Shown here: positions 35,100-40,513 of the stretch, piece by piece
Layout: the number at the start of each line of letters is the position of its first letter
Position numbering within the stretch: position 1 is the first letter of the stretch
Assembly: GCF_002865985.1 (NCBI RefSeq)
Contig: NZ_LNDD01000004.1
Span: 124,001 to 188,000 of the forward strand
Length of the DNA stretch: 64,000 nucleotides
DNA from: Thermotoga sp. SG1
GTDB lineage: Bacteria; Thermotogota; Thermotogae; Thermotogales; Thermotogaceae
Direction: 5' to 3'
Position numbers and translations under genes: made by a program
Notes under the pieces: model-generated
Told to the model about the DNA's origin: nothing
Databases searched by the model: none
What the model saw: the letters and a program-made list of their open reading frames with translations, nothing else

Positions 35100-36055
35100 A
35101 AATCATCCCGGTGTTTCTTCCATACGCTGGTTGTAAGAAAAGATGTGTCTTTTGTGACCAGGTAAAAGCAACGGGACAGGAGAAGGTCCCGTCTCTTGAT
35201 GACATCGCACGACTCATAGAGGAGTATTCAAAGACGTCCGAAGAGTACGAGGTGGGATTCTACGGAGGAACGTTCACCGGTCTTTCCGAGCAGAAGATGG
35301 AGGAGTACCTGAGCTTCGTCAGAAAGTTCTCTGTGGTGAGATCGATCAGGGTCTCCACCCGTCCAGACGAGGTGACAAAGGAGAAACTCGAGATTCTGAA
35401 AAGATACGATGTTGAAACGATCGAAGTTGGGGTTCAGTCTTTCTCAGACGAGGTGCTGAAGGCTTCAAAGAGGGGTTACACCTCCGATGAGGTAGAAAGG
35501 GCCTGTAAGCTCATTAAAAAGATGGGGTTCAGGTTGAGCGTACATCTGATGGTGGGACTGCCAAAGAGTGACAGGAAAGATGAGATACTTTCTGCGCTGA
35601 GAACGATAGAATGTGGTGCTGATCTGGTGAGGATACATCCCACTCTGGTCTTTGAAGGGACGGAACTTCACAGGATGATGGAAACTTTTCAATACAGTCC
35701 GCTCGACCTGGAGGAAGCGATAGACATCTGTTCTGATCTTGTGTGCATTCTGGAAGGATGGGGGGTTCGGGTGATCAGGATAGGGTACCACGTCCCTGTT
35801 GAACTCAGAAGATACGTGGTAGCAGGTCCTCTGGATCCTGCCCTTGGAGACAAGGTGAGGAAGACGGTCATGAAGAAGGTGATAAAAAGATTGCGTCCGA
35901 CCAGAGTGGTTGCTCCGAAAAATTACCTCGTGTGGTTTGAATCGGAAGAAGTGAAGGTGGGGGATGAATTTCTGTTCGACGAACTGGCTTACACCGATGC
36001 CCTCTTTCTTGTGGGAAAAGAGGTGATAGAGGGATGCTTGAACGGCTCTCTCTGA
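35096..36055 (+). CDS. Radical SAM protein, Elp3-like N-terminal type
   Basis: 319 residues. The 4Fe-4S cluster ligands are C13, C17 and C20 (CKKRCVFC). [34 protein letters not shown] and [21 protein letters not shown]-type blocks resemble Elp3/HemN-like radical SAM proteins. There is no acetyltransferase domain. Its position after rnc is a conserved arrangement I know from Firmicutes. The reaction is unknown; tRNA modification is a guess. Confidence 0.85.
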
Positions 36056-36369
36056 TGGTGGTCCTGGTAGGTCTTCTTGGCGTTCTTGTGAACAGAGACC
36101 TCATCAAGAAGATCATCTCACTCGACATCATGGGAACCGGGGTTGTCAGCTTCTTCGTGATCGTGTCGAGAAAACAGGGAAAAGACGTTCCGATACCATT
36201 TCACCCAGGAGCGGCTGATCCTGTTCCTCAGGCTCTGATCATCACCTCGATTGTGATTGGCTTTGCAACCGTTGCCCTTCTCGTCACCGTAGCGAGCGTT
36301 ATTTCTTCAAAGTACTCTTCTATTTCTTCCGAAAAACTTGACAGGGATCGAGGGGGAGAGAAAGAGTGA
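36034..36369 (+). CDS. mnhC: Mrp/Mnh antiporter subunit C (NuoK-like)
   Basis: 111 residues, three membrane helices. HPGAADPVPQALIITSIVIGFATVALLV is the MrpC/NuoK signature with its buried acidic residue in the first helices (DLIKKIISLDIMG). Membrane subunit of a cation/proton antiporter. ATG 36034 overlaps the end of the radical SAM gene by 22 nt and GTGA joins it to the next subunit, so the antiporter genes are coupled to the preceding run. Confidence 0.9.
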   Translation: MLERLSLMVVLVGLLGVLVNRDLIKKIISLDIMGTGVVSFFVIVSRKQGKDVPIPFHPGAADPVPQALIITSIVIGFATVALLVTVASVISSKYSSISSEKLDRDRGGEKE

Positions 36370-37730
36370 TTTTCCTTTCTTACAATTTCTTTCTTGTGGC
36401 ACTCGGTATTGCTCTCCTTTCTTTAAAAAGAAAGACTCCGGTGTGGATGGTGTGGATCAACTTTTTCTTCATTCTCGGAGTTGTTTTCGGCAACTACAGA
36501 TTCGATCTCACACTGACAGGGGAGTTCGGCGTACACCTTCTGCTAGATCACATATCACATTATTTCCTCCTGCTCACCGCCTTGGTCTTTCTTGCCGTCT
36601 TCACCAGGAAGATGAGTGTGAATCTTTCTAATCTTCTCCTTGTCCTTCTTGGGGTTCTCAATCTCACTTTCGTGAGTGCCGACCTGTTCAACCTCTATGT
36701 GACGATCGAAGCGGTCTCTCTTCTCACTTTTCTACTGGTTGTAGAAGGAAGAAAGAAAGTTCAGTACTGGTCTGCTTTCAAATATCTAATTCTTGGAACG
36801 ATCGGCATGAACGTGTACCTCGTAGGTGTTGCCATTCTGTACGCAGAAAACGGTACTCTCTCCATTTCCGGATTATCTGAAAATCCCTTTGCCACTTCCC
36901 TGATCACGTCCGGACTTCTTCTGAGAGCGGGCGTGTTTCTGTTCAGCATATGGCTTCCACAGCTTCACTCCGAAGCCGAAACGGTGATCTCTGCTGTTCT
37001 CTCTGGCGTGGTTGTAAAGAGTGCGGTCTACGGTCTTTTGAGGATGGAAGAAATTGTGAACTGGGAAGTGATAGAGTATTTTGCGATACTTTCTGCTCTT
37101 TCTGGAGCTGTCCTTGCTTTTCTTTCCAAGGATTACAAAAGAACGCTTGCCTACAGCACGCTCTCGCAGATCGGAATAGTCCTTGTGTCTTCCATAACCG
37201 CCCCTGTGTACTCGCTGGCACACGGTGTTTCCAAGTCGTGGCTCTTTCTTCTGAAAGACGAACTTCCCGGCAGGAACACAGAAGAATGGAAAAGGCTCGA
37301 TTTCTGGACGTGGTTTTCACTTGCACTGGCCAGTCTCTCAATCATGGGTTTTCCCGGACTTGCAGGTTTTTCAAAAAACATGGTCCTGGACCAACTTCAC
37401 GGTTGGGAAAAGATTCTCATGGAAATCGTCTTCGTTGGAACCGCCGCCACGTTCTGGCGGTTTCTGATGAAGCCGTTTGCCCTTTCGGGTCAGGGAAGAA
37501 TGAAACTCTACAGCGTAATACTTGCCGCTTCATCCGTTGTGATCGGAGTTTCCTTTGCAAACTGGAAATCATCGCTTGAGAGCGTTCTTCTGATAGGAGC
37601 AGGTCTTCTGATTCATTTCCTCTTCAGAGAATACAGGATCGAAAGTTACCCTCTGGAGGATTTCGACTCCATGCTGGGGATCTACCTTCTTGGGACGGTG
37701 ATAATGTGTCTGTTTTCGCTGCAGTGGTGA
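36366..37730 (+). CDS. mnhD: Mrp/Mnh antiporter subunit D (NuoN/M/L-like)
   Basis: 454 residues, about 13 helices, start GTG 36366. It is the only NuoL/M/N-type ion-translocating subunit in the cluster. FNLYVTIEAVSLLTFLLV carries the conserved Glu on helix 5, KYLILGTIGMNVYLVGV, HSEAETVISAVLSGVVVKSAVYGLLR has the broken-helix Lys, and KRTLAYSTLSQIGIVLV is the other signature. Shorter than typical MrpD (about 490). Proton/sodium exchange inferred. Confidence 0.92.
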   Translation: MIFLSYNFFLVALGIALLSLKRKTPVWMVWINFFFILGVVFGNYRFDLTLTGEFGVHLLLDHISHYFLLLTALVFLAVFTRKMSVNLSNLLLVLLGVLNLTFVSADLFNLYVTIEAVSLLTFLLVVEGRKKVQYWSAFKYLILGTIGMNVYLVGVAILYAENGTLSISGLSENPFATSLITSGLLLRAGVFLFSIWLPQLHSEAETVISAVLSGVVVKSAVYGLLRMEEIVNWEVIEYFAILSALSGAVLAFLSKDYKRTLAYSTLSQIGIVLVSSITAPVYSLAHGVSKSWLFLLKDELPGRNTEEWKRLDFWTWFSLALASLSIMGFPGLAGFSKNMVLDQLHGWEKILMEIVFVGTAATFWRFLMKPFALSGQGRMKLYSVILAASSVVIGVSFANWKSSLESVLLIGAGLLIHFLFREYRIESYPLEDFDSMLGIYLLGTVIMCLFSLQW

Positions 37731-38068
37731 CAGGAACCGTTTTCTTTGTAATTCTTTCTCAAAAAATCACCATTCTGACCGTTGTCATGGGGGTTCTCAT
37801 GAGCCTTGCTGCTTATCTGTTCACAAGGCCTTCACATTTCGAGAAATTTCCAATTCTCATTTTCAAACTCGTCTACCACATACCGAAGGCGATCTTCGAG
37901 TCGATAATGGTGATGCTGTCTTCCAGAGAGAGGAGTGCCTATGAGGTTTCTGTGGAGAATGAATGGGAAGAACTCGAAAAAACCCTCACGATCACTCTCA
38001 CTCCAAAAACGCTGGTTGTCGTTTCCGATGAAGGGTACATAGTGGTTCATCGGGTGGGGAGAAGATGA
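37706..38068 (+). CDS. mnhE: Mrp/Mnh antiporter subunit E
   Basis: 120 residues, start GTG 37706 in a 25-nt overlap with the D subunit. Two or three N-terminal helices followed by a soluble domain; TLTITLTPKTLVVVSDEGYIVVHRV is the characteristic MrpE ending (T-x-TPGT-like). It is shorter at the N-terminus than most MrpE. ATGA junction to the next subunit. Confidence 0.88.
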   Translation: MSVFAAVVTGTVFFVILSQKITILTVVMGVLMSLAAYLFTRPSHFEKFPILIFKLVYHIPKAIFESIMVMLSSRERSAYEVSVENEWEELEKTLTITLTPKTLVVVSDEGYIVVHRVGRR

Positions 38069-38307
38069 TCTGGATACTCACCGTTCCTCTTGTTCTGAGT
38101 GTTATCCTGGCTGTGATGGGTAGAAACCGGTGGGAAAAGCTACTCGGGATCTCTTCGCTTTCCACCAAAACGGGTGTTCTGATATACGCACTGTCGTATC
38201 TTGTTCCGGGGCTTTCTCAAGTGCGGGATGTTGCTATCTTCTATCTATTAGCCGGTGGAAGTGGTATAATCCTCTTCTCTTACTTTTTGAGGGGGAGAAA
38301 GGAATGA
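38065..38307 (+). CDS. mnhF: Mrp/Mnh antiporter subunit F-like
   Basis: 80 residues, three membrane helices (LTVPLVLSVILAVMG; TGVLIYALSYLVPGL; AIFYLLAGGSGIILFSYFL). Position between E and G subunits and length fit MrpF, which helps form the proton path; residue conservation is weak, so the call rests on context. Starts in an ATGA overlap, ends in another. Confidence 0.78.
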   Translation: MIWILTVPLVLSVILAVMGRNRWEKLLGISSLSTKTGVLIYALSYLVPGLSQVRDVAIFYLLAGGSGIILFSYFLRGRKE

Positions 38308-38540
38308 TCTACATCGGTGTGGCACTGATGTGCCTTGGCACCTTCTTTGCCCTCATAAAGAGGGATTTTTATCTGAAGATACACTTCATAGGGATATCCG
38401 ACACGGTGGGATCACTCTTTGTGGTTCTCAACTTCTGGGAGGATATTTCTAGGACAGTTCTCATGTTGGTGATTCTGCTCGTGTGGGGACCGTTCATCTC
38501 CCACGTGATAGCGCGCATGTACACGGAGGGATCCTCTTGA
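38304..38540 (+). CDS. mnhG: Mrp/Mnh antiporter subunit G
   Basis: 78 residues from ATG 38304, after GGGGGAGAAAGGA. Three helices with the MrpG pattern GLxLMCLGTFFALIKRDFYLKIHFIGISDTVG. A longer frame opening at 38130 is only the F gene in another frame. Ends in a TTGA overlap with the fused MbhD-like subunit. Confidence 0.86.
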   Translation: MIYIGVALMCLGTFFALIKRDFYLKIHFIGISDTVGSLFVVLNFWEDISRTVLMLVILLVWGPFISHVIARMYTEGSS

Positions 38541-39205
38541 TAGAGTACATCGTTCTTTTTTCGATGATAGCAATCTCTTTCTACACGATTTTCACGCCTG
38601 TGAGGATGTTTTCGGTCATTGGAAGGACTGCTATCAGCGTTCTGGCAACACTGCTTTACACCATTCTTGCCGCACCAGACGTTGCCATAGCCGAGGCACT
38701 CCTGGGGGCCCTTCTCACAACCCTTGTTTATCTGATAGCCCTCAAATCTAGAAACAAGATAAGGATTGGATTCACACCCGTGAGACTGCTCTTTGAGAAA
38801 ATCGGAGAAGCCTTCACAGGATTCGAATACGAACTCATGAAGATCTTCTGTGAAAAGTACGACTATGGAGTGGAGTTTGTGGAATACGACTCTCTTGAAG
38901 AGCTGATGAGGGCGCTGAATGGGGGAAGGATAGACATCGGGTGCGGTGGTGTTTTCAGGGAGGACAGAAAGGGATACCTGGAAACGAAGATCTTTTATCT
39001 TGAAGACGAAAAGCTCGATCTTCTGAGATATATGGATAGAACCTATCGAGGAGAAGAACTGAACCATATCTTTCAGAAGGAGGGAAGTTACCATATCCTC
39101 TTTGCCGACGAAGAATTGAGAAGCCGCTTCAAACACTTTCTTAAAGTAGAAAAGAACCTTGTAGAAAGACTCAAGAGAAAGTATTTTGGGGAGGAGAGCA
39201 AATGA
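38537..39205 (+). CDS. MbhD-like antiporter subunit fused to an SBP-type ligand-binding-like domain
   Basis: 222 residues from TTG 38537 (TTGA junction). Residues 1-70 are three helices with APDVAIAEALLGALLTTLVYLIAL, the MbhD/C-terminal-MrpA block. Residues 75-150 then read like lobe 1 of a family 3 solute-binding protein: RIGFTPVRLLFEKIG, TGFEYELMKIFCEKYDYGV, EFVEYDSLEELMRALNGG, RIDIGCGGVFREDR, with R144 in the place of the amino-acid carboxylate-binding Arg. The remaining 70 residues are too short for a full lobe 2. Basic residues after helix 3 put the domain in the cytoplasm by the positive-inside rule. I know no Mrp subunit with this architecture. Probably senses or regulates; function inferred. 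Confidence 0.8.
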   Translation: MIEYIVLFSMIAISFYTIFTPVRMFSVIGRTAISVLATLLYTILAAPDVAIAEALLGALLTTLVYLIALKSRNKIRIGFTPVRLLFEKIGEAFTGFEYELMKIFCEKYDYGVEFVEYDSLEELMRALNGGRIDIGCGGVFREDRKGYLETKIFYLEDEKLDLLRYMDRTYRGEELNHIFQKEGSYHILFADEELRSRFKHFLKVEKNLVERLKRKYFGEESK

Positions 39206-39804
39206 GATGGATCTGGATAGCGGTGCTTACGGTTTTTGGGGCAATGCTGGTTGCAAGCGGAGGTTTCGAAAAGATTCTTATAGACCTCAGAGATACCGTG
39301 GTGGAAAATCCCATAACGCAGATATACCTTCTGAACAGGGTGTACGATACGGTGTTTGAGGTGCTCATCTTTTCCCTTGCGGTTCTGGGGGTTTCCTTCC
39401 ACATGTCCTACCTTCCCGCGCCTGAAGAGATAAAGAGCATATCGGACGTTTCCATCAGGATCTTCACACGTTTCATCGCGTTCTTTCTTCTGGTTGGATC
39501 TCTCTACCTTGCGGTCGAGGGCCATGTGAGTCCCGGTGGGGGGTTTTCGGCTGGGGTTGCGGGTGGAACGGCTCTGGCATTGATCGCTCTGGTGGAAGAT
39601 TTCGAGAATTTTGAGAGGAAATTTGAGAGGACAAAGGCGTATTTTCTGGAGAAATTTGTCATGATCGTTTTTCTCTTCCTTGTGATGTTGATATTGCCAG
39701 GAAGGAATCTCATCGTTCCGGCCAACGTGATCGTGTATCTGAAGGTGATGCTGGGAAGCTGGATAGTGGTGTACTACTTCATAAAACACAGAGGACTACT
39801 CTGA
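39202..39804 (+). CDS. mnhB: Mrp/Mnh antiporter subunit B with MbhE-like N-terminus
   Basis: 200 residues, ATGA start at 39202. N-terminal about 70 residues (NPITQIYLLNRVYDTVFEVLIFSLAVLGV) match MbhE, the other small piece homologous to the end of MrpA; the rest is MrpB with GHVSPGGGFSAGVAGGTALAL. So two pieces usually attached to MrpA or separate are fused here. Last gene of the antiporter run; its stop overlaps the convergent pseudopilin gene by 9 nt. Confidence 0.87.
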   Translation: MRWIWIAVLTVFGAMLVASGGFEKILIDLRDTVVENPITQIYLLNRVYDTVFEVLIFSLAVLGVSFHMSYLPAPEEIKSISDVSIRIFTRFIAFFLLVGSLYLAVEGHVSPGGGFSAGVAGGTALALIALVEDFENFERKFERTKAYFLEKFVMIVFLFLVMLILPGRNLIVPANVIVYLKVMLGSWIVVYYFIKHRGLL

Positions 39805-40242
39805 AATTTCAAGATCGTAGATTGTGTCTCCTATCTTCACAGAGAACACCTTTCCATCCTGAAGAAAAACTATCTTCTTTTTCGTTTCGAGCAGATAGTT
39901 GTTTCCCTCACCGCTCAATCCCTTCCGAATGAGTTTGTACACTCCATCATCGAAAACCACGATGTAGGAAATTCTGCCGCTTTTTCCCTTGTGATCCGCG
40001 TTGAAACTCATACAGGATGGAGTAACGGAGGAAGAAGGGGTTTCTGCCCTTTTCACCTCGTACTCGTGTCTCATGAAATCCACGGCGTAGAGTTCATCGA
40101 GAGTTCTGTCCAGATCGTTCACAAGACGGGCCTTTGTTTCTAGGGCAAGGGAGAGAGCGAGAAATCCGATCATTGCGATCGTAAAGAAACAGAGAAGCAA
40201 ACTGAGAACTTCGACGATTGTGTAGCCAAATAAAAGATGCAC
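39796..40242 (-). CDS. Pseudopilin-like protein with start inside the SRP RNA gene
   Basis: 148 residues from GTG 40242 (GTG 40245 also possible). A leader of five or six residues ends LLFG, followed by YTIVEVLSLLLCFFTIAMIGFL: a type IV prepilin signal cleaved after Gly with Glu at +5, then one hydrophobic helix. The rest (FDDGVYKLIRKG, FLQDGKVFSVKIGDTIYDLEI) is a small beta-rich head. The start codons fall in the 3' strand of the SRP RNA terminal helix, preceded by GGTGGG. Translation would require read-through of the SRP transcript. The same frame continues open through the SRP gene, but that is not protein. Confidence 0.65.
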   Translation of the reverse strand: MHLLFGYTIVEVLSLLLCFFTIAMIGFLALSLALETKARLVNDLDRTLDELYAVDFMRHEYEVKRAETPSSSVTPSCMSFNADHKGKSGRISYIVVFDDGVYKLIRKGLSGEGNNYLLETKKKIVFLQDGKVFSVKIGDTIYDLEISE

Positions 40243-40513
40243 CACGCACCCACCGTCGACTTCCCCAGACCGGGGCGTGCGTGGTCGGAGAGCTCCGATC
40301 GGGCACCCCCACGGCACACGGAGACACCTGCTTATGGCTGCTCCCTCCCGGGCCTGACCAGGTTCACAGGGCTCCGTTGCGTGGGACCCGATCTTCATCG
40401 CTTCCGAACCACACCGTTTCCCGACCCGAGGAGCCTCGGGTGGGAGTTCGGCCCCGCGTATGGCGGATTTCGGGTACAGGGGACCGCCAACCCCCCGCCT
40501 AGCGTGGTGCACC
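40237..40513 (-). ncRNA. ffs: Signal recognition particle RNA, long bacterial form
   Basis: On the minus strand GTGAACCTGGTCAGGCCCGG followed by GAGGGAGCAGCCA (within 40325-40367) is the conserved helix 8 with a GGGA tetraloop. The ends pair: GTGCACCACGC at the 5' side with GCGTGGTGCAT at the 3' side. About 275 nt, matching the long RNA with an Alu domain seen in Bacillus and Thermotoga rather than the 114-nt E. coli type. It is much more GC-rich than its surroundings, as expected for a structured RNA in a hyperthermophile. After the closing helix a T-rich stretch (TCTTTTATTT) could act as terminator. Ends are approximate. Confidence 0.95.

Follow-up and report, generated by a model that had tools for sequence, protein, structure and literature searches.

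MbhD of MBH, TM1-3 of the complex I subunit NuoJ and TM17-19 of MrpA all consist of three TM helices, and MbhD and MrpA have a coupling glutamate in common, at a position that is occupied by Tyr in NuoJ (PMC7419157). In MrpA this residue (E706) lies where Na+ and H+ movement are coupled and adjoins the cation bound there, and changes at H719 and at P721, the latter at the end of the E706 helix, alter the Km for Na+ (PMC7419157). The group-3 Mrp antiporters are defined by the absence of the MrpA antiporter half, together with at least one MrpD and the subunits B, C, E, F and G (PMC8415708), and one of these, the stand-alone Mrp of Pyrococcus furiosus (mrpEFGBB'CD), has neither that half nor a redox arm. 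There, MbhD and MbhE are parts of one fused subunit, for which a binding-protein lobe is not described (PMC8415708). In the DNA analyzed here (the window, 64,000 nucleotides of Thermotoga sp. SG1), an operon with the same subunit set carries an MbhD that, unlike MbhD of MBH, NuoJ and MrpA, continues into a C-terminal soluble lobe related to family-3 solute-binding proteins (SBP). The genes are as follows.

36034..36369, plus strand, MrpC (Oxidored_q2, 2.9e-23)
36366..37730, plus strand, MrpD, the sole antiporter-like subunit of the operon (Proton_antipo_M, 6.7e-34; PRK07234.1-3, 2.1e-234)
37706..38068, plus strand, MrpE, short at 120 aa (MNHE, 1.8e-7)
38065..38307, plus strand, MrpF, divergent (weak NCBIfam subunit F matches, E 0.01, and operon position)
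38304..38540, plus strand, MrpG (PhaG_MnhG_YufB, 1.1e-11)
38537..39205, plus strand, MbhD-SBP fusion protein, 222 aa plus stop, TTG start
39202..39804, plus strand, MbhE-like N-terminal part fused to MnhB/MrpB (MnhB, 1.5e-15; PRK12567.1-5, 1.2e-119)

The gene order from 36034 to 39804 is thus C-D-E-F-G-[fusion]-B, with a single Proton_antipo_M gene. Since there is one antiporter-like subunit and the MrpA half is absent, the operon is, by its gene content, a stand-alone group-3 Mrp antiporter and putative Na+/H+ exchanger, with MrpF weakly assigned. It holds no genes for ABC permease or ATPase partners. Of 20 Thermotogota loci compared, 19 have the same Mrp neighbors, usually ordered E-F-G-[MbhD]-[MbhE+B]-C-D, and one of the 19 (L159) has a Clostridia-type extension in place of the lobe. 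A second MbhD of the SG1 genome, in an operon with NuoH-, NuoB-, NuoC- and NuoD-like genes, is 80 aa long and has no lobe, which places the lobe with the stand-alone Mrp in this genome and answers in the negative whether the extension is simply a standard part of MbhD without SBP similarity. This second Mrp-type block, of the Mbx/Mbs type, is at L186:5351-14043 (G000:C4:253500-268500). Downstream of the fusion operon, a large bacterial signal recognition particle RNA (RF01854, 192.5 bits) occupies 40242-40507 on the minus strand, and the ORFs listed over it are probably spurious. Between 40947 and 43265 there are three adjoining predicted secreted proteins of 309, 225 and 214 aa with no Pfam matches, the latter two of which look alike by eye.

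The fusion gene begins with TTG at 38537, seven bases downstream of a GGAGG at 38525-38529, and its start overlaps the stop of mrpG as TTGA. The encoded protein can be divided as below.

38537..38749, plus strand, MbhD membrane part, residues 1-71 (Pfam MbhD, 1.5e-12; AlphaFold2 helices)
38693..38695, plus strand, Glu53 of APDVAIAEA, equivalent of MrpA E706 and MbhD E69, the Na+/H+ coupling glutamate
38753..39004, plus strand, family-3 solute-binding protein lobe 1, residues 73-156 (Pfam, AlphaFold2, fold and profile matches)
38966..38968, plus strand, Arg144, earlier candidate ligand Arg, not conserved
39005..39070, plus strand, lobe-2 stub with DLLR motif, about residues 157-178 (boundary approximate)
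39071..39187, plus strand, lobe 1 return segment (strand 179-189, helices 192-204 and 206-217)

The reading frame, its start and length, and the N-terminal MbhD block agree with the initial annotation, the Pfam MbhD model (PF13244) matching residues 10-71 with 47.9 bits against a curated cut-off of 27.2. Three TM helices (2-19, 23-44 and 49-71) are present in the AlphaFold2 model, Glu53 is invariant among 21 Thermotogales sequences, and a linker of about three residues separates the end of the third helix from the lobe. The SBP-type domain spans about residues 73-217, and consists of lobe 1 together with a C-terminal segment that returns to it, while of lobe 2 only some 20-30 residues are left, so that by both the model and the alignment the two-lobe clamshell is missing. 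A second lobe of about 70 residues had been proposed, but because strand 179-189 and helices 192-217 belong to lobe 1, these last ~70 residues are mostly lobe 1 return, leaving only about 157-178 for lobe 2. This remnant contains a conserved DLxR motif, and longer relatives of about 250 aa in other Thermotogota families retain somewhat more of lobe 2.

The lobe-1 pattern of family-3 solute-binding proteins, noticed at first by eye, is borne out by Pfam, by profile searches and by the predicted fold. SBP_bac_3 (PF00497) matches residues 91-218 with E 3.3e-7 and 30.6 bits, above the curated cut-off of 26.4, and relatives score 42.3 and 33.0 bits. When the single sequence was searched against the PDB, its N-terminal part matched an MBH subunit and a DUF4040 protein, and its C-terminal part matched AncQR, MltF and HisJ weakly. 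When 32 Thermotogota extensions, with the membrane part removed, were combined into a profile and searched against the PDB, family-3 binding proteins were recovered at E 3.8e-15, with many others below 1e-5, these matches covering both the N-terminal and the C-terminal stretches. An AlphaFold2 model of the subunit alone, outside the complex, was built from 21 sequences and has a pLDDT of about 90 across the extension domain; it contains a binding-protein lobe, and the outcome that would have spoken against the assignment, a model with no such lobe, did not occur. Structural comparison of this model by VIA-align matched 149 residues to glutamine-binding protein with Z 15.4, and the matches listed, with Z from 13.8 to 15.4, were all either family-3 binding proteins or ligand cores of glutamate receptors; 116 residues could be superposed on open GlnBP (1ggg) at 1.7 A. 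Foldseek was concordant (2.7e-7) and also matched the isolated domain A of LAO (6xks, target TM 0.61), an example of a single lobe that can fold alone. By sequence and predicted fold, the fusion of MbhD with a lobe derived from a family-3 binding protein is real.

GlnH, HisJ, LAO, the N-domain of MltF and GluR0 share with the fusion the lobe 1 fold, the sequence profile and the C-terminal helices. It differs from family-3 binding proteins in having no signal peptide, a predicted cytoplasmic location, a reduced lobe 2, and neither the ligand motif nor an ABC partner. LysR-type regulators use the type II binding-protein fold in the cytoplasm, so the earlier statement that a cytoplasmic domain is unlike all usual solute-binding proteins holds for the ABC-type proteins only; LysR-type effector-binding domains differ from the fusion in their two lobes and DNA-binding partner domain. 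An existing family entry, NCBIfam PRK07377 (NF005627-NF005630, 'hypothetical protein', 183-195 aa, linked to Synechococcus elongatus and T. maritima), covers MbhD and part of the extension (residues 4-136, E 8e-13), with scores far below its cut-offs (48.7 against 370, and 47.9 against 149). The SG1 extension alone gave no match to PRK07377, and just one Thermotogota extension taken alone did so (E 8e-5).

A phylum search for the same fusion in other Thermotogales and beyond found the long form widely across Thermotogota, in 68 of 103 genomes; 88 of the 103 have MbhD matches of any kind, nearly all of the non-long ones being short MbhD. In one genome (G086:C13:225030-225763) the fusion appears to be split into two frames with an internal stop, and is possibly a broken or mis-assembled copy. 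A plasmid collection searched with the fusion protein gave no match. Searches of the literature (open-licence papers) found no MbhD-binding-protein fusion, so the original remark that no Mrp or Mbh subunit of this kind is known stands for the papers searched, but the architecture is by no means rare; it is conserved and real, and was not found described in those papers.

As Glu53 corresponds to MrpA E706 and the lobe begins about three residues past the end of its helix, a module close to the site of Na+ entry is proposed. The C-terminus of TM helix 3 would run through the short linker into a cytoplasmic lobe, in which lobe 1 is kept, lobe 2 is cut to a stub and the amino-acid site appears to be gone. 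The lobe would then be packed as a fixed module on the cytoplasmic face, beside MrpE, MrpF and MrpG, and through the Glu53 helix it could stabilize or tune Na+ access, with no gating by amino acids. We favor this reading, of a fixed cytoplasmic module of the group-3 Mrp MbhD that stabilizes or tunes Na+ access, with a probability of roughly 0.6.

A possible alternative, which we regard as rather less probable, is that the domain has no regulatory part and only glues MbhD to MrpE, MrpG and MrpB in an antiporter that is missing the MrpA half or a redox arm. This would fit the presence of the lobe in the stand-alone Mrp and its absence from the 80 aa MbhD of the redox-type operon, as well as the reduction of the ligand site, and it would also fit the fact that in Clostridia and Spirochaetes a different extension, about 110 aa long, is found at this end of MbhD. 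The latter extension is not clearly related to the Thermotogota lobe: a profile comparison between them gave 12.8%, a PDB sequence search with it gave no match, and although its model (pLDDT 82) recovered almost exclusively binding-protein-type lobes, the Z scores of 5-6.5 are in a range where unrelated folds score too, and Foldseek found nothing below 0.001. Mycoplasmatota also have an MbhD extension of about 110 aa at this place, and the profile match to the Thermotogota lobe (87%, E 4e-6) is suggestive, though only that, of a resemblance. Against a purely adhesive role, the stand-alone group-3 Mrp of P. furiosus works without such a described domain (PMC8415708), so the domain is seemingly not required as glue.

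The initial annotation had instead put forward a ligand-gated antiporter. On such a reading the lobe, by itself or closed against another subunit, would take up an amino acid or other small molecule from the cytosol and thereby switch Na+/H+ exchange. The nearest folds are those of amino-acid binders and of the ligand cores of glutamate receptors, and the lobe follows directly on the Glu53 helix, both of which would suit a sensor. The details of the site are less accommodating. In GlnBP the amino acid is contacted by T, R and a lobe-2 Asp, and stand-alone binding proteins consistently have a T-x4-R loop with FSDPYY or similar after it; this carboxylate-binding loop is deleted or replaced in each of the 39 Thermotogota fusions, its Thr and Arg are absent, and the second lobe needed for clamshell closure is nearly gone. 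Arg144, previously singled out as the ligand-binding Arg, is shared by the SG1 protein and its closest sister, but two other relatives have K at this position and one has N, all within the genus Thermotoga. With the contact loop deleted and residue 144 variable, amino-acid binding of the usual type by the Thermotogota lobe is unlikely. The DLxR of the lobe-2 stub falls, in the alignment, close to the acidic residue with which binding proteins contact the amino group of their ligand, so that some ligand site may persist. Judged from these alignments, the Thermotogota lobe is probably a regulatory or structural add-on and not a working amino-acid sensor, and the proposal of a ligand-gated antiporter is improbable for this protein.

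A further point in favor of ligand gating comes from Atribacterota, where 5 of 50 genomes encode, in an Mrp operon, MbhD joined to a complete family-3 protein as a 294 aa open frame. These fusions keep two lobes, the T-x4-R loop and FSDGYF, and have lost the beta-1 Asp. Examples of this two-lobed form are found in a Candidatus Atribacteria clade (L001:2368-3237, with relatives L164, L165 and L167), and a complete binding protein on an MbhD subunit was found only in one clade of Atribacterota. Profile-profile comparison of the Thermotogota extension with the complete Atribacterota domain gave 97.7%, near full length around one large gap. A tree of the MbhD part (64 columns) joins the Thermotogota fusions to the Mycoplasmatota form (95/89) and those of Atribacterota to short MbhD (99/94), which suggests that the two arose separately, onto the same end of the same subunit. 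A common origin of both was considered, and the MbhD tree argues against it, though tentatively in view of its few columns and long branches. For Thermotogota, gating by amino acids is the less probable option, and its prospects are better for the Atribacterota clade. A broader version, in which the cytoplasmic end of the coupling-glutamate helix acquired binding-protein domains on two or more occasions as intracellular sensors gating Na+/H+ exchange, with an intact two-lobed site in Atribacterota and a one-lobed Thermotogota form that either responds to something else or locks the gate, is speculative and in our view unlikely to be correct.

Family-3 binding proteins are normally exported, and by this precedent the domain could lie outside the cytoplasm. 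Three concordant lines point to the cytoplasmic side, as the initial annotation had deduced from the distribution of charged residues. The mean number of K+R is 1.64 in loop 1, 0.08 in loop 2 and 2.82 after TM3 (39 rows). NuoJ, the homologue of MbhD over the first three helices, is N-out (PMC4604451), which puts the end of TM3 inside. Helix HL of MrpA is on the cytoplasmic side (PMC7419157), so that by our own count of helices the end of TM19, the equivalent of MbhD TM3, is also inside. MbhD is, in addition, held in place by the complex, and an extracytoplasmic lobe is very improbable. Least credible is a functionless vestige of an old fusion, which would agree with the loss of lobe 2 and the ligand loop, since the extension domain is under purifying selection (dN/dS 0.06-0.12, well below 1, where dS is not saturated) and, throughout the phylum, the frame is open and colinear.

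Complex I and the membrane-bound hydrogenases have Mrp antiporters as their evolutionary core, and the fusion touches on the question of how a stand-alone Mrp without the MrpA half is driven and controlled. The complete binding protein of the Atribacterota fusions is the best candidate for a ligand-gated antiporter, and would make that idea directly testable.
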